This document shows, piece by piece, positions 14,234-59,332 of a stretch of DNA of 64,000 nucleotides. This stretch comes from Bacteroidia bacterium. Lineage in GTDB: Bacteria; Bacteroidota; Bacteroidia; Flavobacteriales; Flavobacteriaceae. The translations under genes were made by a program, and so were the position numbers. The notes beneath the pieces are model-generated. The model searched no databases. It was not told where the DNA came from and worked only from the letters and a program-made list of their open reading frames with translations. The stretch's first letter is position 1. Every line of letters starts with the position of its first letter. The stretch spans positions 1 through 64,000 of the forward strand of contig JAUIIU010000009.1 of assembly GCA_030431695.1 (NCBI GenBank), read 5' to 3'.

Positions 14234-14311
14234 TCCCATAAGTAAGCGGATTTATTGTCAAAAGCTGCAAATATACAATCTCAGGACAGGGGTTGTCAAG
14301 TAAAAGGGGAT

Positions 14312-15550
14312 TTATCTTTGGAATTCACAACGGATACCCACCCTGGCAAGGTCTTCCCAGAAATCGGGATAGGATTTCGTAACCACCATTGGATCTGCGA
14401 TATTCAAATTTGTGATCAGTGCCAGGGGTGCGAAGGCCATGGCCATGCGGTGATCGTGGTACGTATCAATGGTTACTTCAGAATTAATTTTCCCCGAAGG
14501 ATACAGGTGAAGTGTGTCTTCGGTGATATCGACGGTCGCACCTAATTTTTCCAATTCCTTTTTCAGTGCCTCCAGCCGGTCCGTTTCCTTAATCTTCAGA
14601 GTGTGCAGTCCCGAAAGTTCACATTCGATCCCCAGTCCGAAACAAGTCACCGCTATGGTTTGAGCGATATCCGGCGTTTTATTGAGATCCAGTTGTATTT
14701 TTTCTGAAGGAATGATACCTGAACGTGACAGTTCGATAGACCCTTCCGAAGGATCAAAACTGGTTGAAACACCAAGAGATTCATATATTCGCACCAGCGC
14801 CGAATCTCCCTGCAGGCTATTGCTGCGATAGCTTTTAAGCCTCACCGAAAGCCCCTCGGATAGTGCCACCAGGCTGTAATAATATGAGGCAGAGCTCCAG
14901 TCGGATTCTACTGTAAGTGTACAGGGAGCAACAGATCTTAGCGGTGGGATCACCACCTTGTTTTCAGAAAAAACCACCTCGCAACCCGATTCCCGCACCA
15001 GGTTTGCGGTCATCTGAATATAAGGCCTTGAGGTTACGGCACCTTCAAGGTTTATCTCGAGACCATCGAGGAGAGAGCTCCCAATTAGCATCAGTGCCGA
15101 AATGTACTGGCTGCTTGTTCCTGCAGCTATATTCAGGCTGGCCGATCGAAGTTCCGCACCACGGATCTCCAGGGGTGGAAACCCCTCCGATCCGTGATAA
15201 GTGATGTTAGCACCCAGTTCCCGGAGTGCATCCACCAGGATAGAGATGGGTCGCTCTTTCATCCTTGTGCTTCCGGTAAGAATCACCTTTCGTCCGGGTT
15301 GACCTGCAAAGTAGGCTGTTAGGAATCGCATAGCCGTCCCGGCATGGTGAATATCAACCACCTCCAGATCTTCCGAAAGGGCCTTTTGTAATATCCGCGT
15401 GTCATCGCTGTTCGAGATATTCTCTATGCTGATGGCGGGATAGAGCGCCCGGAGAATGAGCAGCCTGTTAGATTCACTCTTAGATCCCGTAACACGGATC
15501 ACGGGAATTGGTTGTCTAAGATCACGGCTATTGTATAGTCTAGCGATCAT
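14312..15550 (-). CDS. aroA: 3-phosphoshikimate 1-carboxyvinyltransferase (EPSP synthase)
   Basis: 412 residues from the ATG at 15550, which overlaps the preceding gene's stop by 11 bp; the upstream track start is less likely. It joins phosphoenolpyruvate to shikimate 3-phosphate in the aromatic pathway that also feeds the DAHP synthase/pheA genes near 27 kb. Seen: GSKSESNRLLILRAL (substrate loop), HHAGTAMRFLTAYFA, TGSTRMKERPISILVDALRELGA and KIKETDRLEALKKELEKLGA near the C-terminus. The N-terminal loop GSKSESNR differs from the usual K-S-x-S-x-R spacing but keeps its Lys, Ser and Arg. The gene is translationally coupled to the small membrane protein upstream. Confidence 0.93.
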   Translation of the reverse strand: MIARLYNSRDLRQPIPVIRVTGSKSESNRLLILRALYPAISIENISNSDDTRILQKALSEDLEVVDIHHAGTAMRFLTAYFAGQPGRKVILTGSTRMKERPISILVDALRELGANITYHGSEGFPPLEIRGAELRSASLNIAAGTSSQYISALMLIGSSLLDGLEINLEGAVTSRPYIQMTANLVRESGCEVVFSENKVVIPPLRSVAPCTLTVESDWSSASYYYSLVALSEGLSVRLKSYRSNSLQGDSALVRIYESLGVSTSFDPSEGSIELSRSGIIPSEKIQLDLNKTPDIAQTIAVTCFGLGIECELSGLHTLKIKETDRLEALKKELEKLGATVDITEDTLHLYPSGKINSEVTIDTYHDHRMAMAFAPLALITNLNIADPMVVTKSYPDFWEDLARVGIRCEFQR

Positions 15551-19992: not shown

Positions 19993-21899
19993 TTTTTAAT
20001 CAAGACGATTTTAGATCTGTCGAGCTTCGCAACTTGCTTAATAAACTCTACATATTCATTGAATGCTTCTTTGGGATAACGCCCGGAATTAACTACGAAT
20101 TCACGTTTGTACAAATATTTGTCTGGCGTGATTTCAGTGATAGTGGCTTTGTAAGTACCAAATTTCGAGTTAAGCTCGATCGGTTTGAAAGCAGACTCTA
20201 TCTCAAAACTTTGCGGGATGTGCCATTCGATCTCATCGCGTTCGGTGAAACCACGACGTATCACTACGGGTTGAGTTCGTTTCTTACTCTTGGAGGGTAT
20301 ATCTTCAATACGCCTGAAAATATTCGGGTTTAGTAGTATTCGACTACCAGCCTTAGACAAATAGCCGGAAGTTTCAAAGCGCAATGACTCTTCGAACACC
20401 ACATTTTCTTTATCGTTATTGAATTCTATATCGTTAAGGCTAAGATCGTTCAAATGGGACCATGAATGCTTGTAGGAAGAATCCAATTCATCGCTTTTGG
20501 CATTCATCAGACGGTAGCGATAATTATATTCGATGCCTGAAGATGCTTGTTCGACCTTGCCCGACACTACCAGGGATTCCTGAAGTGTGACTTGTCCTGA
20601 AATGGCCTCCAGGTTATCCTCAGGCCCGTATTCATGGGTTTGTGTCATCACACCGCCTTCGGGAGTGATCATAAGGGCTTTTCGATTGTCGGTATGAACC
20701 CCGAGATAATTGAATGGAATATCCTGGCTGGTACATTCAAGAAACACCAATTCATCATCCAGGGGCACGGTAAGAATCACATGATTGCCCTGAATGGCCA
20801 CAAAATCCTCGATGAGATCCCTACCGTTCACACCTGCATTTACAATTGTGTAGTACGATTCAATACCCTGGCTCTCAAGAAGCGCTCTTGTATAATTTGT
20901 CAATCCCTTACAATCTCCATAACCCAACCTATCCACCTCTTCTGCACGTGTTGGTTGCCAGCCACCTATCCCCACCTGAACACTAATGTAACGTGTCTTG
21001 GATTGCATATACTCATAAATCGTTCGCACCTTCTCTCTTGTATCTGAAATATCATTTACCAACTGGTCTACCTTGGCCAGGGTCGCCGGGGATAAATTCC
21101 TTCTGCCTGTAAGTAATTGCCGCTCCTGCCATAATCCGAAATCCCTCCAATCGCGAATACTTGCCTTTACACCTCTGAGTTCAAAGTTCATAGGTGCTAT
21201 TCTCACGAAAGGCATATACTCGGTAAAATGAGGCCCCATTGGCTCATGATCGATGGCCGGAATATTTTCCACCGTATATTTTAACATCGTCGGCGTCTCG
21301 GTAGTCTGAACATTGAATTCTTCCAGGTTGAATGCCTTAACTGTAAGTGGAATACTATTGGGGTTCCGAAGTTCATAGGTAGATTGCTCCGTACTCACCC
21401 TGTAATAAGGCATGGGGTCCCACCATGGGAGAAAACCCGTAGATTTAGTTCGTTTACTCGAAATGAACTCAAAGGTAAACGGGTAGAACGCCGGAGTGTA
21501 TTCCAACACCATTGCCCTGTCATCCGAATACAGGTTAATACCCGAAACACTGATATCGACAAAATCCTTCTTCTTATATTTCTTTATAAGTTTTCCATGT
21601 TTATCATACACATTGGCCGAAATATCCTGAATACTGGAGCTATTATCGTATTGGACCGCGGGCTGGATCGTAGTAAGTCCTCGCTTGTTGAACACGGTTA
21701 CAACAACCCTATTGGTGATCTGCATTTTATCCACCTGGTCCAATTCAACGATCGCTTGCTGCGTTCGTATCACCGCGTTCGCATTCTTTCGCATATCCGC
21801 ACTTATAGCATCAACCGAATAATCCCGCTGTGCTTTCACCGGCAACAGGCCGATGATCAGAACGACCATCGCTACAATAAAATTCCGAAGCATTTTCAT
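19989..21899 (-). CDS. DUF3857/transglutaminase-fold secreted protein, Cys/His present (paralog 3)
   Basis: 636 residues, signal peptide ending PVKAQ. It is the most divergent of the four and closest to the widespread DUF3857 form: WWDPMPYYRVSTEQSTYELRNP in the N-terminal domain, then VGIGGWQPTRAEEVDRLGYGDCKGLTNYTRALL with Cys330 and GNHVILTVPL with His373. The third catalytic position is Glu in FLECTSQ rather than the Asp of paralog 1. Probably periplasmic. The 4-bp overlap with paralog 2 and 17-bp gap from paralog 4 argue for one transcript. Confidence 0.85.
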   Translation of the reverse strand: MKMLRNFIVAMVVLIIGLLPVKAQRDYSVDAISADMRKNANAVIRTQQAIVELDQVDKMQITNRVVVTVFNKRGLTTIQPAVQYDNSSSIQDISANVYDKHGKLIKKYKKKDFVDISVSGINLYSDDRAMVLEYTPAFYPFTFEFISSKRTKSTGFLPWWDPMPYYRVSTEQSTYELRNPNSIPLTVKAFNLEEFNVQTTETPTMLKYTVENIPAIDHEPMGPHFTEYMPFVRIAPMNFELRGVKASIRDWRDFGLWQERQLLTGRRNLSPATLAKVDQLVNDISDTREKVRTIYEYMQSKTRYISVQVGIGGWQPTRAEEVDRLGYGDCKGLTNYTRALLESQGIESYYTIVNAGVNGRDLIEDFVAIQGNHVILTVPLDDELVFLECTSQDIPFNYLGVHTDNRKALMITPEGGVMTQTHEYGPEDNLEAISGQVTLQESLVVSGKVEQASSGIEYNYRYRLMNAKSDELDSSYKHSWSHLNDLSLNDIEFNNDKENVVFEESLRFETSGYLSKAGSRILLNPNIFRRIEDIPSKSKKRTQPVVIRRGFTERDEIEWHIPQSFEIESAFKPIELNSKFGTYKATITEITPDKYLYKREFVVNSGRYPKEAFNEYVEFIKQVAKLDRSKIVLIKK

Positions 21900-49003: not shown

Positions 49004-50260
49004 ATGCCGTATTTATTTACTTCGGAAAGTGTCTCGGAAGGACACCCGGACAAAGTCGCAGACCAGATCAGTGATGCGCTTATCGACAATTTCCTGGCTT
49101 TCGACCCGCAGTCGAAAGTTGCCTGTGAAACATTGGTTACCACCGGGCAGGTGGTCCTCGCCGGTGAAGTGAAGTCGAATATCTACCTGGACGTACAGAA
49201 AATAGCCCGAGACGTAATCAACCGAATCGGTTATACCAAGGGTGAGTACCAGTTCGACGGTAGTTCCTGTGGCGTGCTTTCGGCCATTCATGAACAGTCC
49301 GAAGATATCAACCGGGGTGTCGACCGCGCCACCAAGGAAGAACAAGGCGCCGGCGACCAGGGCATGATGTTCGGATATGCAACCAGGGAAACAGACGACT
49401 ATATGCCGTTGGCACTGGATCTTTCGCACAAGATACTCAAGGAACTTGCAGACCTCCGCAGGGAGCATGACGAGATCACCTATCTGCGCCCCGATTCCAA
49501 GGCACAAGTGACCATAGAATACAACGACGACAACAAACCTATTCGAATCGATTCTATAGTAGTTTCTACGCAGCACGACGATTTCGACCCGGATGAAGCC
49601 CGAATGCTGGAAAAGATCAAGAGCGATATCATTGGCATATTGATCCCGAGGGTGAAATCGCAGCTAAAATCCGAGATACAGGCGCTGTTCAACGATAATA
49701 TAAAGTATCACATCAACCCTACTGGTAAGTTCGTAATTGGTGGTCCGCATGGTGACACAGGGCTGACCGGCAGAAAGATCATCGTAGACACCTACGGTGG
49801 TAAAGGAGCACATGGTGGTGGGGCCTTCAGTGGGAAGGATCCCAGCAAGGTAGATCGATCGGCGGCTTATGCCACCCGGCATATTGCCAAGAATATGGTG
49901 GCAGCAGGTATTTGCGATGAGATACTGGTACAGGTTTCCTACGCCATCGGGGTAGTTGAACCAATGGGGATCTTTGTGGATACCTACGGTACTTCAAAAG
50001 TGAATATGACCGACGGCCAGATCGCCGCCAAGATCACCGAGATCTTTGATATGCGTCCTTCGGCAATTGAGGAGCGACTCAAACTGCGACAGCCGATGTA
50101 TTCGGAAACTGCAGCTTATGGACATATGGGGAGGAAGAACGAGATCGTTCATAAAACCTTCAAAACCCCCGACAATACTGAGACTACCCTTGCGGTTGAA
50201 TTATTCACCTGGGAGAAACTGGATTATGTGGACAAGGTGAAGGCGGCTTTTGGGGTGTAG
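49004..50260 (+). CDS. metK: S-adenosylmethionine synthetase
   Basis: 418 residues. Makes SAM from methionine and [28 protein letters not shown] is the N-terminal signature, [12 protein letters not shown] the ATP motif, [21 protein letters not shown] and [19 protein letters not shown] the later conserved blocks. Monocistronic behind its own SAM-sensing leader. The following 240 bp hold degenerate tandem repeats. Confidence 0.97.
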
Positions 50261-50372: not shown

Positions 50373-50404
50373 CTTCGACACTTCGACACTTCGACACTTC
50401 GACA
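50373..50404. repeat. Tandem repeat, 8-bp unit CTTCGACA x4
   Basis: Four exact consecutive copies of CTTCGACA, in the gap between metK and the response regulator. Preceded (50261-50340) by loosely repeated GTTCAGTGTTCA-like sequence. Confidence 0.9.
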
Positions 50405-50468
50405 AGCTCAGTGCATCGCAAGCTCAGTGCATCGCAAGCTCAGTGCATCGCAGGCTAATTGTATCACA
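50405..50468. repeat. Tandem repeat, 16-bp unit AGCTCAGTGCATCGCA x3 plus a degenerate copy
   Basis: Three exact 16-bp copies (50405-50452) and a diverged fourth (50453-50468). The junction CTTCGACAAGCTCAGTG resembles a short repeat seen dispersed in many bacterial genomes (from memory). No spacers, so not a CRISPR. Confidence 0.88.
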
Positions 50469-50499
50469 GGCTCAGGGTATTGAATCGGACAACTGTTAT

Positions 50500-51150
50500 C
50501 TAAATAATGTTATGCCTTTTCGCCTTCTGGACGGCTTCGATCTTGCTGTGTACCTGAAGCTTTTTATAGATATTCTCAATATGTTTCCTAACTGTGCTGG
50601 GTGAAAGAAACAGGTTCTCGGCGATCACCGTATAGCTCAGACCTTTACTCAATTGCTCAAGCACCTCGACCTCGCGTTTGGACAAAGAGATCTCTTCCTG
50701 GTCACGAGGGTTGTCAATATTGATCGGGTTACGAAGTAATTTCAGGGTTTTAAGGGCAATGGAAGGGTTCATGGCCGCACCACCATTCATGGTCTCTTTA
50801 ATGCCGTTGTACAGCTCGTCCGGATTGATCTCCTTCAGCAAATAACCATCGGCCCCTGCTTTTATCGCGTTAAAAATATTCTCGTCATTGTCGAAAGCAG
50901 TGAGCATGATGATCTTGATCTGAGGATACTTTTGCTTCACCACCTGGGTAGTTTCTATCCCATTCAACACGGGCATTTCAATATCCATGAGAATGATATC
51001 GAGGTTATGGTTCTCCCCCAGCCGTTCCAGCAGTTCGCTTCCGTTCAAGGCCGTGGCTTTCACCGTGATATCTTCAAAGAAGGACAACTTTTCCCTGATC
51101 GCGTGGATCAGAAAGCTGTTATCATCAACTATGGCAATCTTCAGATTCAT
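50500..51150 (-). CDS. LuxR/NarL-family response regulator of the island
   Basis: 216 residues. The receiver is canonical: acidic pair in AIVDDNSF, phospho-acceptor Asp in IILMDIEMP, switch Thr in IIMLTAFD, Lys in GYLLKEIN. A C-terminal LuxR helix-turn-helix follows (LSKREVEVLEQLSKGLSYTVIAENLFLSPSTVRKHIENIYKKL). It is the only regulator among two histidine kinases and three envelope proteins, all sharing the same promoter palindrome, including its own (51204-51221). It is therefore the likely binder and an autoregulated activator. Confidence 0.92.
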   Translation of the reverse strand: MNLKIAIVDDNSFLIHAIREKLSFFEDITVKATALNGSELLERLGENHNLDIILMDIEMPVLNGIETTQVVKQKYPQIKIIMLTAFDNDENIFNAIKAGADGYLLKEINPDELYNGIKETMNGGAAMNPSIALKTLKLLRNPINIDNPRDQEEISLSKREVEVLEQLSKGLSYTVIAENLFLSPSTVRKHIENIYKKLQVHSKIEAVQKAKRHNII

Positions 51151-51173: not shown

Positions 51174-51221
51174 TAAAACTACACTGTTTATTTCGAATTA
51201 ACCATACGACAGCTGCCCTAT
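51174..51221 (-). promoter_or_regulatory. Island operator-promoter 1 (response regulator gene)
   Basis: Minus strand: palindrome ATAGGGCAGCTGTCGTAT (51221-51204), exactly 22 nt, then -7 box TAGTTTTA (51181-51174; TAnnTTTG with a final A). 23 nt remain to the ATG. The palindrome overlaps the stop codon of the upstream kinase gene. There is no TTG at -33; the palindrome occupies that position. Confidence 0.75.
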
Positions 51222-53182
51222 TCTGCCAAAACGCCTTGATTCACAGGAAAACGAACCAGTATACGAGTACCCCTGTTAACTTCGGAATCGATCTCGAACG
51301 CTCCACCCAGATCGGAAGCCCGTTTTTTCATATTGTTGATCCCGTTGCCCATTTCTGATGAATCCGTTCGAAACCCAACACCATTATCCTCGATCTCCAC
51401 CCTGTAATTGGAATCTTGCTTATCCATACGAACGTCGATTCGATCGGCTTCGGAATATTTCATCGCGTTATTCACACCTTCCTGGATGATCCTGTAAATG
51501 TTCATCCCCTTGGTCGATTCGAAGGTTTCGTTCATTTCTAGCCCTTCGGAAAGTGAAAAATTGAAATTGGTATTTTTGTTCGCCCATTGCGCCTTTTCGA
51601 TGAAATTAATGATCCTCGACTGCAGGTCTTCCATGGTGATGCCATTCTTATTCATCGCCCAAATGGTGTCCCTGAGCTCGTAAATGGTTTTTCCGGTGAA
51701 ATCACTTATCCCCATCAGGCGGGATTCGAGATCCTTGCCCATATCCTTGAATCCGTACTTGAGGTTGTCCAGGCTGGAAATGATGAAAGTTAGTTGGGCT
51801 CCTATGTTGTCGTGCAGATCCCTGGATATCCGGAGTCGCTGCTCCTGGAGTCGGTTCTGAGTTTCGATCTTTGAAAGGGCGGCCTTTAATTCACCTTCTT
51901 TCCTCAATTGCCTGTTCCTCAATTTTTGTTGGTTGTAGAACAAATACCCTATCAGGGCCAATACGAACGCCAGGCCAAAACCGCCAAAGATCATGTAGTT
52001 CTTCTTTTCCACTTCCAGCTCTTTTTCGGCCAGTTCGGCACGTTGTGTCATGATCTCTTTTTCCTTCTTCTCCGATTCGTATTTGGTCTCCATTTCAACA
52101 ATGGACTCTGTCTTTTCCTTCGAAAACAAGCTGTCTCTACCCTTTGCATAGCGGTTTGAGTATTCCAGTGCCGCCCGATAATTCCCCCTTTTTTCTTCCG
52201 CTTTAGACAGTTCTTTCAACGCTTTTACTTCGAACTCCATAAAACCATTGTCCACAGCAACCTGAAGGGCTTTATTCAGAACCTCAGCACCTTTGGCGGC
52301 ATCCCCTTGTTTGGTCATCAGAGCGCCCAGACCGATCCTGGCATTCGACAATTCATAGAGATTGTTGTCCTCCTCGAACAACCCGATCGATTCTCTGTAC
52401 AATTGATCGGCCCGGGTATAATCTTTCAGGCTATCCCTGGCAATTGCCATATTGACCATCATATAAGGCACATATCTGTTGTAACCCAGGCTGCGATAAC
52501 CTTCCATCGCTTTTTCCAAATAACCGATGGACTCCTGGTATTTCTCCAGACTCAACAGGACAGAACCTATATTCCCCGTAGTGATCACGATTCCAAAGTC
52601 CGACTCATTTTCCTCGTATATCCGCAGCGCCTTTTCGTAGTACTCAAGAACCTTTTCATACTCTTTCTGCTTCTTGTAAACAATGCCGATATTAACGAGC
52701 ACCATGGGTACTTTACTATAATCTGTGGCCTTTTCTTCGTAGATCTCCAGGGCGCGGAAATAATGTGAGATCGCACTGGAGTATTCCCCTTTCTCGTCGT
52801 AAATGATTCCCAGGTTATTGAAGGTGTCGGCCATACCCAGGCTGTCCTTTAAGTGCATCTTCAAATCAAGACTTCTTTCGTGGTAGATTTTTGCACTATC
52901 CAGCTCACCCCTGGCCTGGAAGACACTGGCCTTGCTGTTATAGGCGGAGGCGATCGCCTGGTCGTCCTTTAGTTTCCCGGATTCCAAAATCGCCCTATCG
53001 GCAAAATAATCCGCACTATCCAAATCGCGGTTCTTGTAATTCCAGGAAAGCTCGTTCAGGGTTTTTACCAGGTCCATGCCGGTTTGTGTCTCGGACACAT
53101 TCCGTAAACTGTCAATGGGGTTCTGAGCCAATGCAACTGTTGTGCACGACAAGAAAATGAGGAGTCTTACGTATTTATACAT
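51218..53182 (-). CDS. TPR-containing sensor histidine kinase 1 (HisKA_3 type)
   Basis: 654 residues: signal peptide (LIFLSCTTVALAQ), about eight tetratricopeptide repeats (residues 50-350, e.g. MADTFNNLGIIYDEKGEYSSAISHYFRALEIYEE), a coiled coil, one transmembrane helix (YMIFGGFGLAFVLALIGYLFY), then a dimerisation domain with the phospho-His in RLRISRDLHDNIGAQL and a HATPase_c domain (NNAMKYSEA, VEIDNGVGF-like EDNGVGFRTD, GNGINNMKKRA). HisKA_3 kinases pair with LuxR-type regulators such as the downstream gene. The TPR part should face the periplasm. Paralogous to the kinase at 53488-55515. Its start overlaps the 80-residue gene by 8 bp. Confidence 0.92.
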   Translation of the reverse strand: MYKYVRLLIFLSCTTVALAQNPIDSLRNVSETQTGMDLVKTLNELSWNYKNRDLDSADYFADRAILESGKLKDDQAIASAYNSKASVFQARGELDSAKIYHERSLDLKMHLKDSLGMADTFNNLGIIYDEKGEYSSAISHYFRALEIYEEKATDYSKVPMVLVNIGIVYKKQKEYEKVLEYYEKALRIYEENESDFGIVITTGNIGSVLLSLEKYQESIGYLEKAMEGYRSLGYNRYVPYMMVNMAIARDSLKDYTRADQLYRESIGLFEEDNNLYELSNARIGLGALMTKQGDAAKGAEVLNKALQVAVDNGFMEFEVKALKELSKAEEKRGNYRAALEYSNRYAKGRDSLFSKEKTESIVEMETKYESEKKEKEIMTQRAELAEKELEVEKKNYMIFGGFGLAFVLALIGYLFYNQQKLRNRQLRKEGELKAALSKIETQNRLQEQRLRISRDLHDNIGAQLTFIISSLDNLKYGFKDMGKDLESRLMGISDFTGKTIYELRDTIWAMNKNGITMEDLQSRIINFIEKAQWANKNTNFNFSLSEGLEMNETFESTKGMNIYRIIQEGVNNAMKYSEADRIDVRMDKQDSNYRVEIEDNGVGFRTDSSEMGNGINNMKKRASDLGGAFEIDSEVNRGTRILVRFPVNQGVLAE

Positions 53183-53417
53183 CTATAGATATACCAGGTT
53201 GTACAATCAGCGATTGCTGCAGGTTGTATGCGAGAAAATCGTAACTATCAAGCCCGGACACCCGCTTATTGATCTGAGAGCGATTGGTTTCATAGTTAGA
53301 ATTCATACGCATCATCTCTGTATTGTGATCGGCAACCAGCTTCCTGATATTTCGGAAATGCACCAGCAACACCGCGACAATAATGGAGACAAAAGTACAA
53401 ACTAGAATTTCGGTCAT
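53175..53417 (-). CDS. Small membrane protein, part of the signalling island
   Basis: 80 residues: one N-terminal transmembrane helix (ILVCTFVSIIVAVLLVHF) followed by a polar helical tail (RNIRKLVADHNTEMMRMNSNYETNRSQINKR). No family recognised. Support for a real gene: it overlaps the kinase 1 start by 8 bp in the same direction, and a promoter with the island palindrome lies exactly where expected (53438-53485). It may be an accessory sensor or kinase partner, by position only. Confidence 0.65.
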   Translation of the reverse strand: MTEILVCTFVSIIVAVLLVHFRNIRKLVADHNTEMMRMNSNYETNRSQINKRVSGLDSYDFLAYNLQQSLIVQPGISIDV

Positions 53418-53437
53418 ATTCCTGGTGGTTGAATAAA

Positions 53438-53485
53438 TAAAATTACTTTATTCGCACATATTCCACCATAGGGCAATCGCCTTAT
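53438..53485 (-). promoter_or_regulatory. Island operator-promoter 2 (small membrane protein and kinase 1)
   Basis: Minus strand: ATAAGGCGATTGCCCTAT (53485-53468), 22-nt spacer, -7 box TAATTTTA (53445-53438), then 20 nt to the ATG. Sits 2 bp from the stop of kinase 2, so it gives kinase 1 its own transcript. Confidence 0.75.
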
Positions 53486-53487
53486 TT

Positions 53488-55515
53488 TTATTCTGAATTC
53501 AATATCAACTCAACCCGTGTCCCGGATCCGGAATCACTGCGAATATCGAACTTTGCGTTGATATCCCGAGCTCTTTTCTTCATATTGTTCAGGCCGTTAC
53601 CATAACGCTCTTTATCATTAACATCAAACCCCTTTCCATTGTCCGAAATACTGATCCTGTACGCCTCATCACTTTCAGAAATATCCACTTTGATCATGTT
53701 CCCTTCGGAATACTTCAGTGCATTGTTCACCGCTTCCTGTATGATCCTGTAGAGATTCATTCCAACTATTGAAGTAAAGGTATGGTCCTTCAGCATGTTT
53801 TCAGAAATACTGAAATCGAAACTCACATCCGAACTACTCACCCTGGCCTTTTCAATAAAATTAGAGATCCGGACCTGCAGATCCTCTAGCGTGATATTAT
53901 TCTTGTTCATCGCCCAGATGGTATCGCGCAGCTCGTAGATGGTATCGGTAGTGAATTCACTGATGCCGCTTAGTTTGTTTTTTACGGTGTCTGAAGTATC
54001 CTTCAATCCGAATTTCAGATTATCCACGGAAGAGATGATAAAAGTAAGCTGGGAACCGATATTGTCGTGCAGGTCCCTGGAGATACGAAGTCGCTGCTCC
54101 TGAAGCTTGTTCTGCGTCTCGATCCGCGCCAGTGCGGTCTGAAGTTCGGCTTCCTTCCTTAGTTGCCTGTTCTTCAGCTTTTGCTGGTTGTAGAACAAGT
54201 AACCGATCAGTCCCAGAACGATCGCCAATCCAAATCCCCCGAAGATCAGGGCATTCTTTTTCCTTACCTCGAGTTCCTTTTCGGCCAGGTTGGCCCTGGT
54301 CTCTGCAAGATCGTGTTCTTTGCGTTCGGTCTCGTATTTCACCATGGCGTCTCGAATGGCAACCTGTTTGGATTCGCCCAGGATGCTGTCGTTATACGTC
54401 CGGTAAAGCTTATAATTGGCAATTGCCGAACGGTAATCTCCCAGGCTTTCATGGGCTTCGGAAAGGCTCAGGTATACGGCGCTGATATCGTCCAGTCGGC
54501 CATCTTCAAGTGTATTTTCCAGCACCTCGTTCAGGATAGTGACCGCCTGTTGCGGCCTGTTGGTCTTGGAGTAACAGATCCCAAGGTTCCTTCGAAGTGA
54601 AAAGACCTCGAAATCATTTCGCCTGGCCTGTTTCGCAATGTCTAGCGCCTGATTGATCTCGGCGATGGCCTCGTCGTATCGTTCTTCGGCTATCAAGAGA
54701 TTTGCATTGGATTTGGACACCTGGAATTGGATCATATCCAGCTTATAGTCGTTGACTACCTTTTGCGCAAGGCGATTGTACTCCCTGGCCTTTTCGTACT
54801 TCTCGTCCTCTATGGCGTAACCAGCCAGTTTCACATAGGCACTCACCATATCGTCGGGGTAGTTCGTATTGCCCAATGCCAGGTCGAGCGACCGCTCTGC
54901 GAACTCCCGGGCTAGTTCAGGTTCATCGATCTGCCTGTATAATTCAGAAATATTGATATAAAGTTGAACCTTGATATACAGGTATTGGGTAGTATCTACA
55001 TTCTTAACCGCCTGCAGCATATTGTCGATGGCCGCCTTGTAATTTCCCTGGATCTGGTGGACATTGGCAATATTATTCTTCGAGATCAGTACGCCTATGC
55101 TGTCACCATCCTTTGCGTAGAGGGAGTCGGCCTGGGCAAAATGGTACAGGGCCGAATCCATCTTCTCCATATAGTAGTAGGTCTCGGCGATCTCGCTATG
55201 CCCGTCCGGCAAGAGCGCATTTTGGCCCGATTCCAGGAGAAATTTCCGCGACTTCCTAAAATAGTATCGCGCACTGTCGTAATCCCGAATCCGTGTTTTT
55301 TGCTGAATGAGTTTGGTGAGGAAAATCCCTTTCTGGTAATCATCGTTGATCTCCTCGGCCAGTTTGATCCCCTTATGAAGGTAATACTGAGCACTATCCG
55401 GCTGGGCGGTATAGTTCCTGGTGGCGTACAGAAGGATACTATCGATACTGACCTCCTTCTGCGCGAACAGTAAAGAAGGAACGATTAAAATGACGAAGAG
55501 GAGTATTCGTTTCAT
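53488..55515 (-). CDS. TPR-containing sensor histidine kinase 2 (HisKA_3 type)
   Basis: 675 residues: signal peptide (LFVILIVPSLLFAQ), TPR-rich periplasmic region (about 50-390), coiled coil, transmembrane helix (ALIFGGFGLAIVLGLIGYLFY), HisKA_3 box RLRISRDLHDNIGSQL and HATPase_c (ALKYSEGN, ISDNGKGFDVND, GNGLNNMKKRA). The cytoplasmic half is nearly the same as in kinase 1, while the TPR half differs more, so the two may sense different inputs but signal through one regulator. Own operator-promoter upstream. Confidence 0.92.
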   Translation of the reverse strand: MKRILLFVILIVPSLLFAQKEVSIDSILLYATRNYTAQPDSAQYYLHKGIKLAEEINDDYQKGIFLTKLIQQKTRIRDYDSARYYFRKSRKFLLESGQNALLPDGHSEIAETYYYMEKMDSALYHFAQADSLYAKDGDSIGVLISKNNIANVHQIQGNYKAAIDNMLQAVKNVDTTQYLYIKVQLYINISELYRQIDEPELAREFAERSLDLALGNTNYPDDMVSAYVKLAGYAIEDEKYEKAREYNRLAQKVVNDYKLDMIQFQVSKSNANLLIAEERYDEAIAEINQALDIAKQARRNDFEVFSLRRNLGICYSKTNRPQQAVTILNEVLENTLEDGRLDDISAVYLSLSEAHESLGDYRSAIANYKLYRTYNDSILGESKQVAIRDAMVKYETERKEHDLAETRANLAEKELEVRKKNALIFGGFGLAIVLGLIGYLFYNQQKLKNRQLRKEAELQTALARIETQNKLQEQRLRISRDLHDNIGSQLTFIISSVDNLKFGLKDTSDTVKNKLSGISEFTTDTIYELRDTIWAMNKNNITLEDLQVRISNFIEKARVSSSDVSFDFSISENMLKDHTFTSIVGMNLYRIIQEAVNNALKYSEGNMIKVDISESDEAYRISISDNGKGFDVNDKERYGNGLNNMKKRARDINAKFDIRSDSGSGTRVELILNSE

Positions 55516-55582
55516 TATACGATTATAAGCAATAATATTCTATTTCATTGGCGTCATGCTAAGGACGATTCCTAAAAGTACT

Positions 55583-55630
55583 CAAATTACCAAAAAATGA
55601 CCTTTGACGGAAATACGGCAATTGCCCTAG
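55583..55630 (-). promoter_or_regulatory. Island operator-promoter 3 (kinase 2)
   Basis: Minus strand: CTAGGGCAATTGCCGTAT (55630-55613), 22-nt spacer, then GTAATTTG (55590-55583), the weakest -7 match of the five (its TTTG keeps the same register). The leader to the ATG is longer here, about 67 nt. Confidence 0.65.
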
Positions 55631-55640
55631 TTTCTTCATA

Positions 55641-55671
55641 AAAACAAAAAACCCCATACGAAATGGGGTTT
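55641..55671 (-). terminator. Rho-independent terminator after the beta-propeller gene
   Basis: Stem AAACCCCAT / ATGGGGTTT with 5-nt loop, followed on the minus strand by TTTTGTTTTT. It lies about 55 bp past the stop. Confidence 0.82.
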
Positions 55672-55726
55672 AAATGCGCTGTAAACACTCCTCAATATTT
55701 ACAAGCGGTGTAACTTGGCTAGTCAG

Positions 55727-57586
55727 TTACTTCTTAAGGTCGTAAGCGAATATTGAATTATTATCGGCCTTGTAATAAAGGATCCCGCCAAATTCATCTA
55801 CTTCGTACTCAGGTTTTTTATCTTTCAGCACGATCTCTTTCTCGAGGGCTCCCGTATCCTTGTTCAGTTTAACAAGTCCAACACCCTCATCTAGTTTTGT
55901 CAATATGAATTGCGCATTCTCCGTTGCGGCCGTCGCCTTGAATCGTCTTAGCATTTCCGCTACCGAAGCTCCGGTCGCCATGGCCATGGAGTCTCCCAGG
56001 TCCGCATAAGCTTCTCCCTTTGAGGTATAGTAGCCCAACCTGTTCCTGTTGCGGTTTGCTTCGGCGTAGGCTGCTGTCGCTGTCGCCGCGGATGCTACTG
56101 CGGTTATACCCATGATGATCGCACCAACTGCACTTTTTCCGGGTGCACGGTAATATTCATGCCAGTTCGCAGTTCCGCCCCAGTCCAGCATCATCATATT
56201 CTGGTCGCTGCTAAGCAGTATCCCGCCATCGCGAACTTCAATATCGGTAGGGCTCTCTTTTCCATCGAATTTCGATTCTGCCAGGGTAGATACATCACCC
56301 GTAGCGGCATCCACGCTGAAGAGATCCTCGTCTGCACTGATCAGGTAGCGACTGTTCTTCTCGTCGTAAGCCGAAGCCACGGCATCAGCGCGCTTATATT
56401 TCAGTGGTTTCTTCCATACCTGGTCACCTGTGTTCAGGTTAACGATATTGGCGTCTTCCGAAGTGATATAGATCAATCCCTGGTCTGTATTTGCCATCGT
56501 AAGAATGTTCTCTCCTGTCTTTAAAGGTTTCTTGAACAAGGTATTCCCGTCGAAAGATATCTTGTTGATACCTCCTTCGTAGATTCCGAATAGGATACCG
56601 TCGTCCATGATGTAGAAATGCTGCACATAGCCTTTGGTCTTAGGTGCCTTTTCCCAAAGGTCCTCACCATTACTGGCGCTCAGGAACCCGATCTTGGACT
56701 CAGCCTTGGCACTGGCCAGCTTTGCAAGCCCCGATTTCCCGGAGTTGTCCACGTTACTTACTATTGCCAGTCCCTGTGGCAGGATCTCGAAGTTCACAAC
56801 ATGTCCTTTTACCTTATGAGGGTCGCTCCACAACAAACTGCCATTGGTACCGATCTTGTGTACCCTGGTATTGGAACCATTGGCCGTGGTCTCGAAGCCA
56901 TAGATCTCCTTCTCGGTCTCGTCGGCTACCATCCACTTGATATCGTCTACCTTAACAGACCAATCGATCGCTCCGCCGTTGATATTAACCTTTTTCAGGG
57001 TTTTAGTCGTAGGCAGAATAAGACCATCTTTCAGAAGTAGTGGTCGTCCGCTTACTGTTTCGGAACCTTTCATCGTAAAATAATGCTCCTGCTCCCCAGA
57101 ATCCAGGTCGTAGATGGCAACAGCATTGGCGTATTTTTCTGAAGCTTTCCTTTGTCCGCTAACTACTAGCTTGTTCTGTGGCATCATCACATCACAGGTC
57201 CAGACCAGCTTCCAGCCGTTGTCTTCGGTGCTGAAGAGTTTTTTTCCGGACATATAGTCGATCACCGCTTTCTTGGTGGTCATCGCTCCAAAACCGGTTT
57301 GCCCCACCACCAGGTATGGCGCATTGGGTACAAAGAATAGCTCCTCGGGTTTCACCCTTCCATAATCCCTGAAATTGAAAAGAAGGTCGTTGCTACCGGG
57401 TTTTATTCCTACCAGCCCATCGTTGGTTGCCACAACCATGGTGCCTCCCTGGGTAAGGGTCATTTCGTTTATCTTTCCTCCTACATCGTAGCGAAAATCA
57501 GGGGCTTCCGCTCGTTGTCCTATGGCCATGGTGCTGAGGAAGAACACTAGTCCGGCCAGTCGTTTAATCTCTGTTGAAAGTTTCAT
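55727..57586 (-). CDS. PQQ-like beta-propeller protein
   Basis: 619 residues with signal peptide (FFLSTMAIGQ). About residues 30-460 form repeated beta-propeller blades of the PQQ/BamB type (GLVGIKPGSNDLLF, NLNTGDQVWKKPLKY, SVDAATGDVST). A hydrophobic alpha stretch follows (GAIIMGITAVASAATATAAYAEA), then a final blade-like region (GVGLVKLNKDTGALEKEI, FGGILYYKADNNSIFAYDL). No enzymatic residues can be assigned; it probably acts as a periplasmic binding or scaffold protein. Its promoter carries the island palindrome, so it is a likely target of the regulator at 50500. Confidence 0.82.
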   Translation of the reverse strand: MKLSTEIKRLAGLVFFLSTMAIGQRAEAPDFRYDVGGKINEMTLTQGGTMVVATNDGLVGIKPGSNDLLFNFRDYGRVKPEELFFVPNAPYLVVGQTGFGAMTTKKAVIDYMSGKKLFSTEDNGWKLVWTCDVMMPQNKLVVSGQRKASEKYANAVAIYDLDSGEQEHYFTMKGSETVSGRPLLLKDGLILPTTKTLKKVNINGGAIDWSVKVDDIKWMVADETEKEIYGFETTANGSNTRVHKIGTNGSLLWSDPHKVKGHVVNFEILPQGLAIVSNVDNSGKSGLAKLASAKAESKIGFLSASNGEDLWEKAPKTKGYVQHFYIMDDGILFGIYEGGINKISFDGNTLFKKPLKTGENILTMANTDQGLIYITSEDANIVNLNTGDQVWKKPLKYKRADAVASAYDEKNSRYLISADEDLFSVDAATGDVSTLAESKFDGKESPTDIEVRDGGILLSSDQNMMMLDWGGTANWHEYYRAPGKSAVGAIIMGITAVASAATATAAYAEANRNRNRLGYYTSKGEAYADLGDSMAMATGASVAEMLRRFKATAATENAQFILTKLDEGVGLVKLNKDTGALEKEIVLKDKKPEYEVDEFGGILYYKADNNSIFAYDLKK

Positions 57587-57609
57587 AATCGTGGTTTTAA
57601 TTTGTATTC

Positions 57610-57657
57610 CAAAGATGTATCAAACCCCTTCGTCATTCAATAGGGCAATTGCCGTAT
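57610..57657 (-). promoter_or_regulatory. Island operator-promoter 4 (beta-propeller gene)
   Basis: Minus strand: ATACGGCAATTGCCCTAT (57657-57640), 22-nt spacer, CATCTTTG (57617-57610), 23 nt to the ATG. The -7 box is identical to that of operator 5. Confidence 0.8.
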
Positions 57658-57674
57658 TCTTTTACACCGACAAA

Positions 57675-57713
57675 TAAAAAACCGGAAGCGCTGCAATATG
57701 CTTTGCTCCCGGT
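57675..57713 (-). terminator. Rho-independent terminator after the lipoprotein gene
   Basis: Minus strand ACCGGGAGC / GCTTCCGGT (9 bp with one G-T wobble), 15-nt loop, then six T residues; about 50 bp past the stop. Confidence 0.78.
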
Positions 57714-57762
57714 CCACGTAAAAACCTCAACATGGAGATTTTCTTCAATCCATCTATAGTGT

Positions 57763-58302
57763 TTAATCGATTGAAACTTTAAAACTACCCTGGGTGATCA
57801 TCTTTGAGGTCATATCCTGGGCGTTGTATCCTTCGAAAGAGAAAGTTCCCTCCAGTTTGCCGTCGGCATCTACTGTGATCACGATCTCACCAGGTGCTAT
57901 CCCTGCAGCTGAAGTAGCCAGGTTAGACGCCCATACGTTGGCCGACTGTCCCGCCAACTCCCCATACTGGATCTGGTTCGGGTTTGTTAGGTTATCACCT
58001 GTTTTATAGGTGTCCGGCCCTGTGTATCCGATAATGTTGAAATTGATAAAATCACCACTATTCGTGCTCCCCTGGGCAGTAACTACGGTCATACCGTTAG
58101 CAGTGGATTTTGTGGCACCAATCAAGGTTGCCGGGTCTGTGGACGCAGTGAAATCGGCACCGTCAATTTTAGCGGTGAACGATTCTCCTCCTCCATTACC
58201 TTGCTGATTGTTGGTTCCATTGTCATCGTCCGAACTACATGCTGTGAGCACCAAAGACAGGCAAACGAACATATAGCAGATTGATCTTTTTAAGCTTTTC
58301 AT
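57763..58302 (-). CDS. Island lipoprotein
   Basis: 179 residues with a lipoprotein signal (MFVCLSLVLTACSSDDD, lipobox LTAC), an Asp/Asn/Gly-rich linker typical of surface-exported Bacteroidota lipoproteins (SSDDDN after the Cys), and one beta domain (FTAKIDGADFTASTDPATLIGATK, VTAQGSTNSGDFINFNIIGYTGPDTYKTG). The layout resembles the DUF6252-like lipoproteins of flavobacteria, by impression only. Its promoter holds the island palindrome; a terminator follows. Confidence 0.78.
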   Translation of the reverse strand: MKSLKRSICYMFVCLSLVLTACSSDDDNGTNNQQGNGGGESFTAKIDGADFTASTDPATLIGATKSTANGMTVVTAQGSTNSGDFINFNIIGYTGPDTYKTGDNLTNPNQIQYGELAGQSANVWASNLATSAAGIAPGEIVITVDADGKLEGTFSFEGYNAQDMTSKMITQGSFKVSID

Positions 58303-58331
58303 AATTGTTGGGTTTAGTAATTGAACTGTGA

Positions 58332-58379
58332 CAAAGATGCCTTATAACCCAACGCTACTCAATACGGCAATTGACGTAT
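58332..58379 (-). promoter_or_regulatory. Island operator-promoter 5 (lipoprotein gene)
   Basis: Minus strand: ATACGTCAATTGCCGTAT (58379-58362), 22-nt spacer, CATCTTTG (58339-58332), 29 nt to the ATG. The palindrome lies 2 bp beyond the GSCFA gene stop. Confidence 0.8.
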
Positions 58380-58381
58380 AA

Positions 58382-59332
58382 TTAAAAACGGATGTGTGGA
58401 AAACGAGTCGTAATGGCAGCTATTCGTTTCTGAAGTTGTTCCTGGAAATCCATATTTTCCCGGCTTTCAGGGTGGAACGGTCGGTGTGCAAGCCCCGCCT
58501 GTATCCCGGCGATCTCCTTTTGAACTTCCGATGTGGACGGATCGATCCATACCCTTGAGAACCGATCCCAGATCACCTCCACGGCCGTGCTGTTAAGGTG
58601 AAGCATATCTTCGGAATAAAACCGATAATCACGCAGTTCGTCCATCATAAGTTCGTAGGAAGGAAAATAACGTACAGGCCCCTTGCGGGAATCGAGGTAT
58701 TGGTGAATTCCCGCAACAAGATGAGCCTTGCTCCTCATATTCTCAACGTAACCATCCTTGAGATGACGCACAGGAGAAACAGTGAATACGATCTCGCAGG
58801 CCGGATTTACATCATGAATACTTTCGCAGATCTTCTCACAGGTTTCTGTTACTTCGGAAACAGATAGAAGTTCTTTTCTGAACCTGTTTTGAGGGATCTT
58901 ATGACAGTTGGCCACGATCTCCCCGGATTCCGTAAAACGATACCCCCAGGCCGTTCCAAAGGTGATCAGAAGATGTGTTGTACTTTCGATATATGCTGAA
59001 AGCGAATCCAGGGTTGCATTCAGCAAGTTGAGGTAATCTTCTGCCTGGACATGGGTGAGCAGCGAATGAACCTCCAGGCAATGCCAGTTGCCGTTCTGTT
59101 CGAAGATATCTTCCGAAGTGAACTTCTGCTTCTCTATCGCTCTTCCGATGAGTCGCTCAAGCGCCACAGGGTGAAAAATGATCCCGAAGGGATTCTGCAG
59201 TTGCTGAAACTTGAAATACTCGAGCTTACCACTGATGTGTTCTGTAAAACAGCTACCCAAAAGCAGCGTTCTCGAATGGTAATCGATCTGATTCCCTTCC
59301 GAAGTAAAAGGTATTTGTGTCTGAAGTTTCAT
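58382..59332 (-). CDS. GSCFA-family protein
   Basis: 316 residues. The naming motif is present as LLLGSCFTEHISGKLEYFKF, followed by QNPFGIIFHPVAL, LLITFGTAWGYRF and IVFTVSPVRHLKDG, a GDSL/SGNH-like arrangement with Ser (GSCF) and a late D-x-x-H-like region (SEDMLHLNSTAVEVIW). Possibly an esterase or acyltransferase; no substrate known. It starts 2 bp after alaS and is probably cotranscribed with it. Confidence 0.85.
   Translation of the reverse strand: MKLQTQIPFTSEGNQIDYHSRTLLLGSCFTEHISGKLEYFKFQQLQNPFGIIFHPVALERLIGRAIEKQKFTSEDIFEQNGNWHCLEVHSLLTHVQAEDYLNLLNATLDSLSAYIESTTHLLITFGTAWGYRFTESGEIVANCHKIPQNRFRKELLSVSEVTETCEKICESIHDVNPACEIVFTVSPVRHLKDGYVENMRSKAHLVAGIHQYLDSRKGPVRYFPSYELMMDELRDYRFYSEDMLHLNSTAVEVIWDRFSRVWIDPSTSEVQKEIAGIQAGLAHRPFHPESRENMDFQEQLQKRIAAITTRFPHIRF

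Follow-up and report, generated by a model that had tools for sequence, protein, structure and literature searches.

The DNA analysed here is a stretch of 64,000 nucleotides (nt) from a Bacteroidia bacterium of the Flavobacteriaceae (assembly GCA_030431695.1, contig JAUIIU010000009.1, positions 1 to 64,000), hereafter the window. It contains an island of two-component and exported-protein genes, in which five promoters share an 18-bp palindrome positioned at a fixed distance from a -7-like box. It is highly probable that the response regulator encoded in the island binds this palindrome and activates its own gene, the genes of its sensors and the units encoding exported proteins. The sites, their geometry, their conservation and their link to the regulator were obtained directly by computation.

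A probable palindromic operator in constant phase with the -7 box

A preliminary description of the sequence had placed the palindrome before five genes, and all five copies were found there with 0–3 mismatches to the consensus (Table 1). The gap of 22 nt to the -7-like box was exact at all of them. Dinucleotide shuffles of the 64-kb window gave an expectation of 0.05 matches against the five observed, and none of 100 shuffled windows reached five. A symmetric matrix derived from the palindromes scored its own sites at 23.5–30.2, while the next-best place in the window scored 10. Between 7 and 8 of the 9 base pairs were symmetric in each palindrome, and the ATG lay 68–115 nt from its outer end. 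The statement that a TTG -33 element was absent did not hold, as TTG adjoins two of the five sites (57640 and 58362), where it is formed by the last T of the palindrome and the next two bases (TAT-tga).

The rarity of the site across the genome depended on how much of the element was considered. The core 10-mer GGCAATTGCC was rejected as a genome-wide marker, given that it occurred at 18 places, two of them inside kinase genes. These exact cores in both kinase open reading frames (ORFs; 52439–52448 and 54418–54427) received low matrix scores and are probably a coding coincidence. The loose 18-mer with up to two mismatches was also rejected, since in most of the 10 genomes scanned it barely exceeded its reversed-pattern control (14 matches against 8 in the window's genome, G000), and was superseded by a 48-nt sequence model. 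Unlike the core, the full 48-nt element was specific genome-wide.

Conservation of the element across loci

A search with the propeller protein of the island returned 80 loci (1.55 Mb; 81 with the window), nearly all labelled as Flavobacteriaceae or their genera, in which the gene order GSCFA, lipoprotein, propeller, kinase(s), regulator was largely retained. At a score of at least 16, the window matrix identified 159 places in the 1.55 Mb, compared with one in Markov-simulated sequence. The profile of 161 distinct sites presented the palindrome, a TTG-like edge and the -7 box in fixed columns and fitted a 7-2-7 inverted repeat, TASGGCA-NN-TGCCSTA; a drifted clade was less symmetric. Across the 80 loci and the window, the TTT of the -7 box kept its fixed place in 145 of 163 sites, with a shift of one base in another 9; a position histogram of TTT[GA] (n = 164) had 133 sites at one position, with 8 and 2 at its neighbours.

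The matrix had no match in 28 of the 81 loci. Wherever the regulator was present in them, however, the upstream DNA held a drifted operator, ATACGTAATTCATCGTAT or near it, again 22 nt from the box; its core has changed, whereas the outer ATAnG...CnTAT and the distance are retained. A relaxed pattern, ATAnG-N8-CnTAT plus the -7 box, identified 188 sites in the 81 loci and one in the reversed sequences. All 66 propeller loci with a recognised regulator (at least 60% identity) carried at least one geometry-correct site. Among the 15 loci without one, 10 had sites, mostly on contigs ending before the regulator's place, and 5 had none. Relaxed-pattern sites were absent from L062, L086, L087 and L091, which have a propeller homologue without this regulator, and from L096, which is a 4-kb contig cut at its ends. 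The spacing is conserved in related islands and the palindrome as well, with a core that has drifted in part, and within this set the loci without a site all lacked a recognised regulator. As judged by these comparisons, the operator-promoter element is ancient.

The palindromes are able to form hairpins, and some overlap the end of an upstream ORF (51204–51221), as might be seen if they were terminators, other RNA hairpins or parts of alternative-sigma promoters. This is extremely unlikely, since a hairpin or terminator needs no fixed distance to a -7 box, the palindrome has a TAnnTTTG-type sigma-A box downstream of it and tracks the presence of the regulator, and it is the core that drifts while the outer bases and the spacing stay.

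Co-occurrence of operator and regulator

The regulator was present in 14 of 60 genomes comprising the window's own and its relatives. With the 48-nt model, trained on 76 sites, 11 of these 14 gave matches at E<0.001, as did 1 of the 46 others; some of the matches in the window's genus are there by construction, the training set having included the same or related loci. In the three remaining regulator genomes (G015, G021 and G035), a drifted operator preceded the lipoprotein and regulator genes. The lone exception among the 46, G049, encodes a 49%-identical regulator whose helix, SPYTVRKHIENIYGKLQVH, has the same recognition-helix motif. This genome belongs to another family of the order, and its sites on contig C1 (1507048 and 2319411; L157 and L158) are perfect or near-perfect GGCA palindromes that share the 22-nt geometry, which suggests that the operator code may predate the family. 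In G033 and G034 a propeller gene could not be detected, yet the regulator and sites are present. Among 199 genomes of the family there were 52 with the regulator and 53 matches.

A second set of 44 loci, 32 of them new, was drawn from these 53 matches and so chosen by the regulator alone. Sites were found in 41 of the 44 (29 of the 32 new ones), amounting to 103 sites against one in reversed sequence.

It is very unlikely that another DNA-binding protein reads the palindrome and that the linked regulator is merely one of its targets. The regulator-to-site link comes from sequence comparison, and many regulator-like candidates exist per genome (32–42 at first look in the window's genus), which leaves room for such a protein. 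However, the co-occurrence of regulator and site is near-perfect whether the propeller gene is present or not, G049 retains the helix and the sites though its regulator is only 49% identical, and one locus, L089, has two regulators with two operator types. The co-occurrence, the constant geometry and the pairing in L089 together support the proposal that all five sites of the window, its own included, are targets of the regulator at 50500.

Recognition helix and operator type

Along with a shift of the recognition helix from SPST to SxGT, the core shifts as well, GGCAATTGCC giving way to about GTAATTCATC. Half-sites with GGCA made up 160 of 248 in loci with SPST helices compared with 6 of 110 with SxGT helices, which pair mostly with GTAA/GATG or GTCA/GACA half-sites. 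L257 of the second set, which has an SPGT helix, carries a site of the drifted type, a hint that residue three of the helix matters.

L089 harbours adjacent paralogous kinase-regulator cassettes (14310–14954 and 20411–21058) with different helices and operators: its STGT regulator stands beside ATACGCAATTCGTCGTAT and its SPST regulator beside two ATAGGGCAATTGCCTTAT sites. This appears to be a natural specificity split, and it is more telling as to which protein reads the operator than the tree-based helix correlation. A tree-based test of helix-operator covariation was dropped, the sign test being without power with too few independent switches. Taken as a whole, a picture of a self-encoded regulon with near-rigid geometry across the family, a core and helix that change together, a split code in L089 and two promoter grades built on one operator is somewhat favoured by the sequence comparisons.

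Two promoter grades

A TTG at the operator edge was found in 60 of 65 lipoprotein and propeller promoters compared with 9 of 51 regulator and small-membrane-protein promoters, and a TTTG box in 63 and 2 of them, respectively. At the latter promoters, a TTTA box was commoner (23/51). By these sequence features, the output promoters (TTG and CAnnTTTG) are distinct from the feedback promoters (mostly without TTG, TAnnTTTA-type). Given the two grades, one operator may allow outputs and feedback to be adjusted separately; if the picture is true, the two grades set envelope products and amplification separately.

The promoter grades also bear on whether a repressor, be it this regulator or a different one, uses the palindrome as its operator to shut off sigma-A promoters. 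Bound next to the -33 region, it could obstruct polymerase, and the output promoters, with their TTG and good -7 box, might work unaided. We nevertheless regard repression as unlikely. The 22-nt phase, kept across genera, would be needless for simple repression, the weaker boxes of the feedback promoters and their usual lack of TTG fit activator-dependent promoters, and neither the -7 box nor the start is covered by a site. Repression of its own kinases and of itself would moreover lead to homeostasis and not to induction.

Proposed mechanism of activation

In the favoured reading, activation by the linked regulator, a phosphorylated regulator dimer would bind ATAsGGCAATTGCCsTAT as two 7-bp half-sites, TASGGCA, with 2 bp between them. 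The palindrome centre is placed at about -43.5 from the location of the sigma-A box in F. psychrophilum, -12 to -5 (PMC9723704). From there the dimer would recruit sigma-A RNA polymerase to the -7 box 22 nt further on. The predicted centre falls within the range of about -40 to -45 of class II-type activators, and the phase is invariant as in these. Direct activation is proposed because of the rigid phase, the position beside the -33 region and the poor core elements of the feedback promoters. The feedback units activated would be the regulator gene and the small membrane protein with kinase 1; activation would extend to kinase 2, and the output units would be the DUF6252 lipoprotein and the beta-propeller protein, plus at least three distant exported-protein units. 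The two kinases, whose tetratricopeptide repeats (TPRs) are predicted to lie outside the inner membrane, would pass phosphate to the one regulator. As the kinases and the regulator are autoregulated in this scheme, self-amplification is predicted, and the result would be a self-amplifying envelope response. Within the scheme, we infer from sequence the binding itself, its dependence on phosphorylation, activation over repression, the pairing of kinases and regulator, and the envelope signal.

Several observations weigh against these proposals. The regulator's own operator is the weakest of the five in the window (E 0.015 with the sequence model), and exact spacing is kept least well at regulator promoters (25/39). 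No site was found in 3 of the 44 regulator-chosen loci, namely L243 (an 8-kb stretch), L265 and L266. In L241 an STGT helix occurs together with GGCA half-sites, contrary to the rule, which in its simple form is broken by 9 of 67 regulators; the helix-operator correlation is also phylogenetically confounded, with one independent pair on well-supported branches. Finally, L020 (21.9 kb) has the regulator and no kinase homologue among the tblastn matches, given which the kinase-regulator pairing is treated as putative. The regulator of L020 (12050–12700) is located directly after the propeller gene and is possibly an orphan.

Predicted regulon beyond the island

The sequence model identified, in the window's genome, the five island sites and three distant sites at 17.8 bits or more, the latter 65–72 nt (outer end to ATG) before exported-protein genes. 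The preliminary description of a five-unit regulon is supported for the island units and not for the limit to five. A further partial match on contig C86 (14.8 bits) was taken as chance. On contig C74 (L147, 3633–3650), a perfect 9/9 palindrome precedes the papain-like protease gene (C1 and DUF4384 domains), as it also does in G018.

The distant targets could not be regarded as widely conserved. The protease gene and the TPR protein gene each occurred in 2 of the 14 regulator-bearing genomes, with the site retained in the single other searched genome that has the gene. Homologues of the small barrel occurred in 9 of the 14, with a good site in two (G000 and G005) and a poor one in G035. In related loci, sites were also found before 21 proteins that form a single similarity cluster; MORN repeats were present in the member scanned. 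This MORN-repeat family (L017 11998–13422 and 20 relatives) is exported, has its own operator in many species and is absent from the island of the window. In G033, a site precedes a type IX secretion system (T9SS)-type FG-GAP protein.

Genes of the island

The features are listed in Table 1. The regulator scored above the cut-offs of PF00072 and PF00196, which identifies a NarL/FixJ (LuxR-type) receiver with a GerE-type helix-turn-helix (HTH), and scored 134.3 bits with the curated NCBIfam NarL model, below its cut-off of 250. Both kinases were above cut-off for HisKA_3 and HATPase_c and are HisKA_3 (HPK7-type) sensor kinases. FimS was the best NCBIfam model for kinase 1, at 119.4 bits (61 for kinase 2) against a cut-off of 600.

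Table 1. Features of the island and distant operator sites (window positions, unless a contig of the same genome is given)
Feature	Position	Strand	Remarks
Response regulator	50500..51150	-	receiver + GerE/LuxR-type HTH (Pfam Response_reg, GerE); helix SPSTVRKHIENIYKKLQVH
-7 box TAGTTTTA, regulator promoter	51174..51181	-	22-nt spacing; sequence-model match 51175-51221
Operator 1	51204..51221	-	feedback, regulator gene; overlaps last 4 nt of kinase-1 ORF; homologous sites precede the regulator gene in other loci
Sensor kinase 1	51218..53182	-	TPRs, HisKA_3 + HATPase_c (Pfam); signal peptide and one transmembrane segment by eye
Small membrane protein, 80 aa	53175..53417	-	relatives in many loci; no Pfam or NCBIfam match
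-7 box TAATTTTA, operator 2 promoter	53438..53445	-	22-nt spacing
Operator 2	53468..53485	-	feedback, small membrane protein + kinase 1
Sensor kinase 2	53488..55515	-	TPR, HisKA_3, HATPase_c (Pfam)
-7 box GTAATTTG, operator 3 promoter	55583..55590	-	22-nt spacing
Operator 3	55613..55630	-	kinase 2; found by matrix and sequence model
Exported beta-propeller protein	55727..57586	-	PQQ_2/BamB-like repeats (Pfam)
-7 box CATCTTTG, operator 4 promoter	57610..57617	-	22-nt spacing
Operator 4	57640..57657	-	output, propeller; TTG with last T; E 7.2e-9, best of the genome
DUF6252 lipoprotein	57763..58302	-	Pfam DUF6252; lipobox-like LTAC by eye
-7 box CATCTTTG, operator 5 promoter	58332..58339	-	22-nt spacing
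Operator 5	58362..58379	-	output, lipoprotein; TTG with last T
GSCFA protein	58382..59332	-	Pfam; conserved upstream neighbour
Distant site	contig C74		papain-like protease with DUF4384, then 1092-aa WD40-like protein
Distant site	contig C14		small outer-membrane barrel
Distant site	contig C3		TPR protein

The AlphaFold model of the propeller protein (mean pLDDT, the per-residue confidence score, 78.9) consisted largely of beta strands, and the fold search returned generic tandem propellers only, at low TM-scores, with no lead on function. No operator preceded the GSCFA gene in any of the 71 cases examined. A plasmid search with the regulator returned only distant relatives, the best being 45% among the matches listed. 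Between the end of the regulator gene and a converging gene (49004–50260, metK-like by eye), tandem CTTCGACA and GCAAGCTCAGTGCATC-like units occupy 50389–50475, which looks like a flavobacterial intergenic repeat.

Comparison with known systems and implications

Several known systems resemble parts of this one. LuxR-type class II activators bind a lux box near -42.5; the island shares with them a palindrome beside the -33/-35 region, a fixed phase and a GerE-type HTH, but it has a receiver domain and kinases in place of a small-molecule domain, and another operator sequence. The VraSR/LiaRS envelope-stress systems combine a NarL-type regulator with autoregulation and envelope targets, all of which have predicted counterparts here. 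Unlike them, the present system has TPR kinases predicted to be periplasmic, no recognised LiaF-type partner and Gram-negative exported targets. The NarL half-site is TACYYMT. NarX/NarL of E. coli is alike in its NarL-type regulator and 7-2-7 inverted half-sites, and at the yeaR-yoaG and ogt promoters a single such site, lying against -35 or just upstream of it, can be enough for activation (PMC7419079). In contrast, the half-site here is TASGGCA within a Bacteroidota sigma-A promoter, the sensors carry TPRs, copies of the site stand before the regulator and kinase genes themselves, and the regulator is far below the NarL cut-off. FimS/FimR of Porphyromonas gingivalis is similar through kinase 1, which reaches 119 of the 600 bits required by FimS, and has different targets. 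FimR of Bacteroidota binds and activates a target promoter, and the terms 'consensus' and 'inverted repeat' are absent from the main text of that paper (PMC1974823). Both the format of the operator and the classes of protein involved were already known, while no description of the regulon, the operator, the two promoter grades or the operator-helix drift was found in the open-access literature, subscription papers being mostly outside this coverage.

How activators are arranged relative to promoters is poorly defined in Bacteroidota; in their sigma-A promoters the -7 box is clear and the -33 element elusive (PMC7366714). The sites in the 81 propeller loci and the 44 regulator-chosen loci provide a large natural promoter set with variants of operator, spacing, -33 and -7 elements, each with a predicted regulator, and L089 offers a ready specificity test. 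The predicted regulon would further assign common control to uncharacterised exported proteins, namely the DUF6252 lipoprotein, the propeller, the MORN-repeat proteins and the papain-like protease unit, in the Flavobacteriaceae, a family important in the sea.

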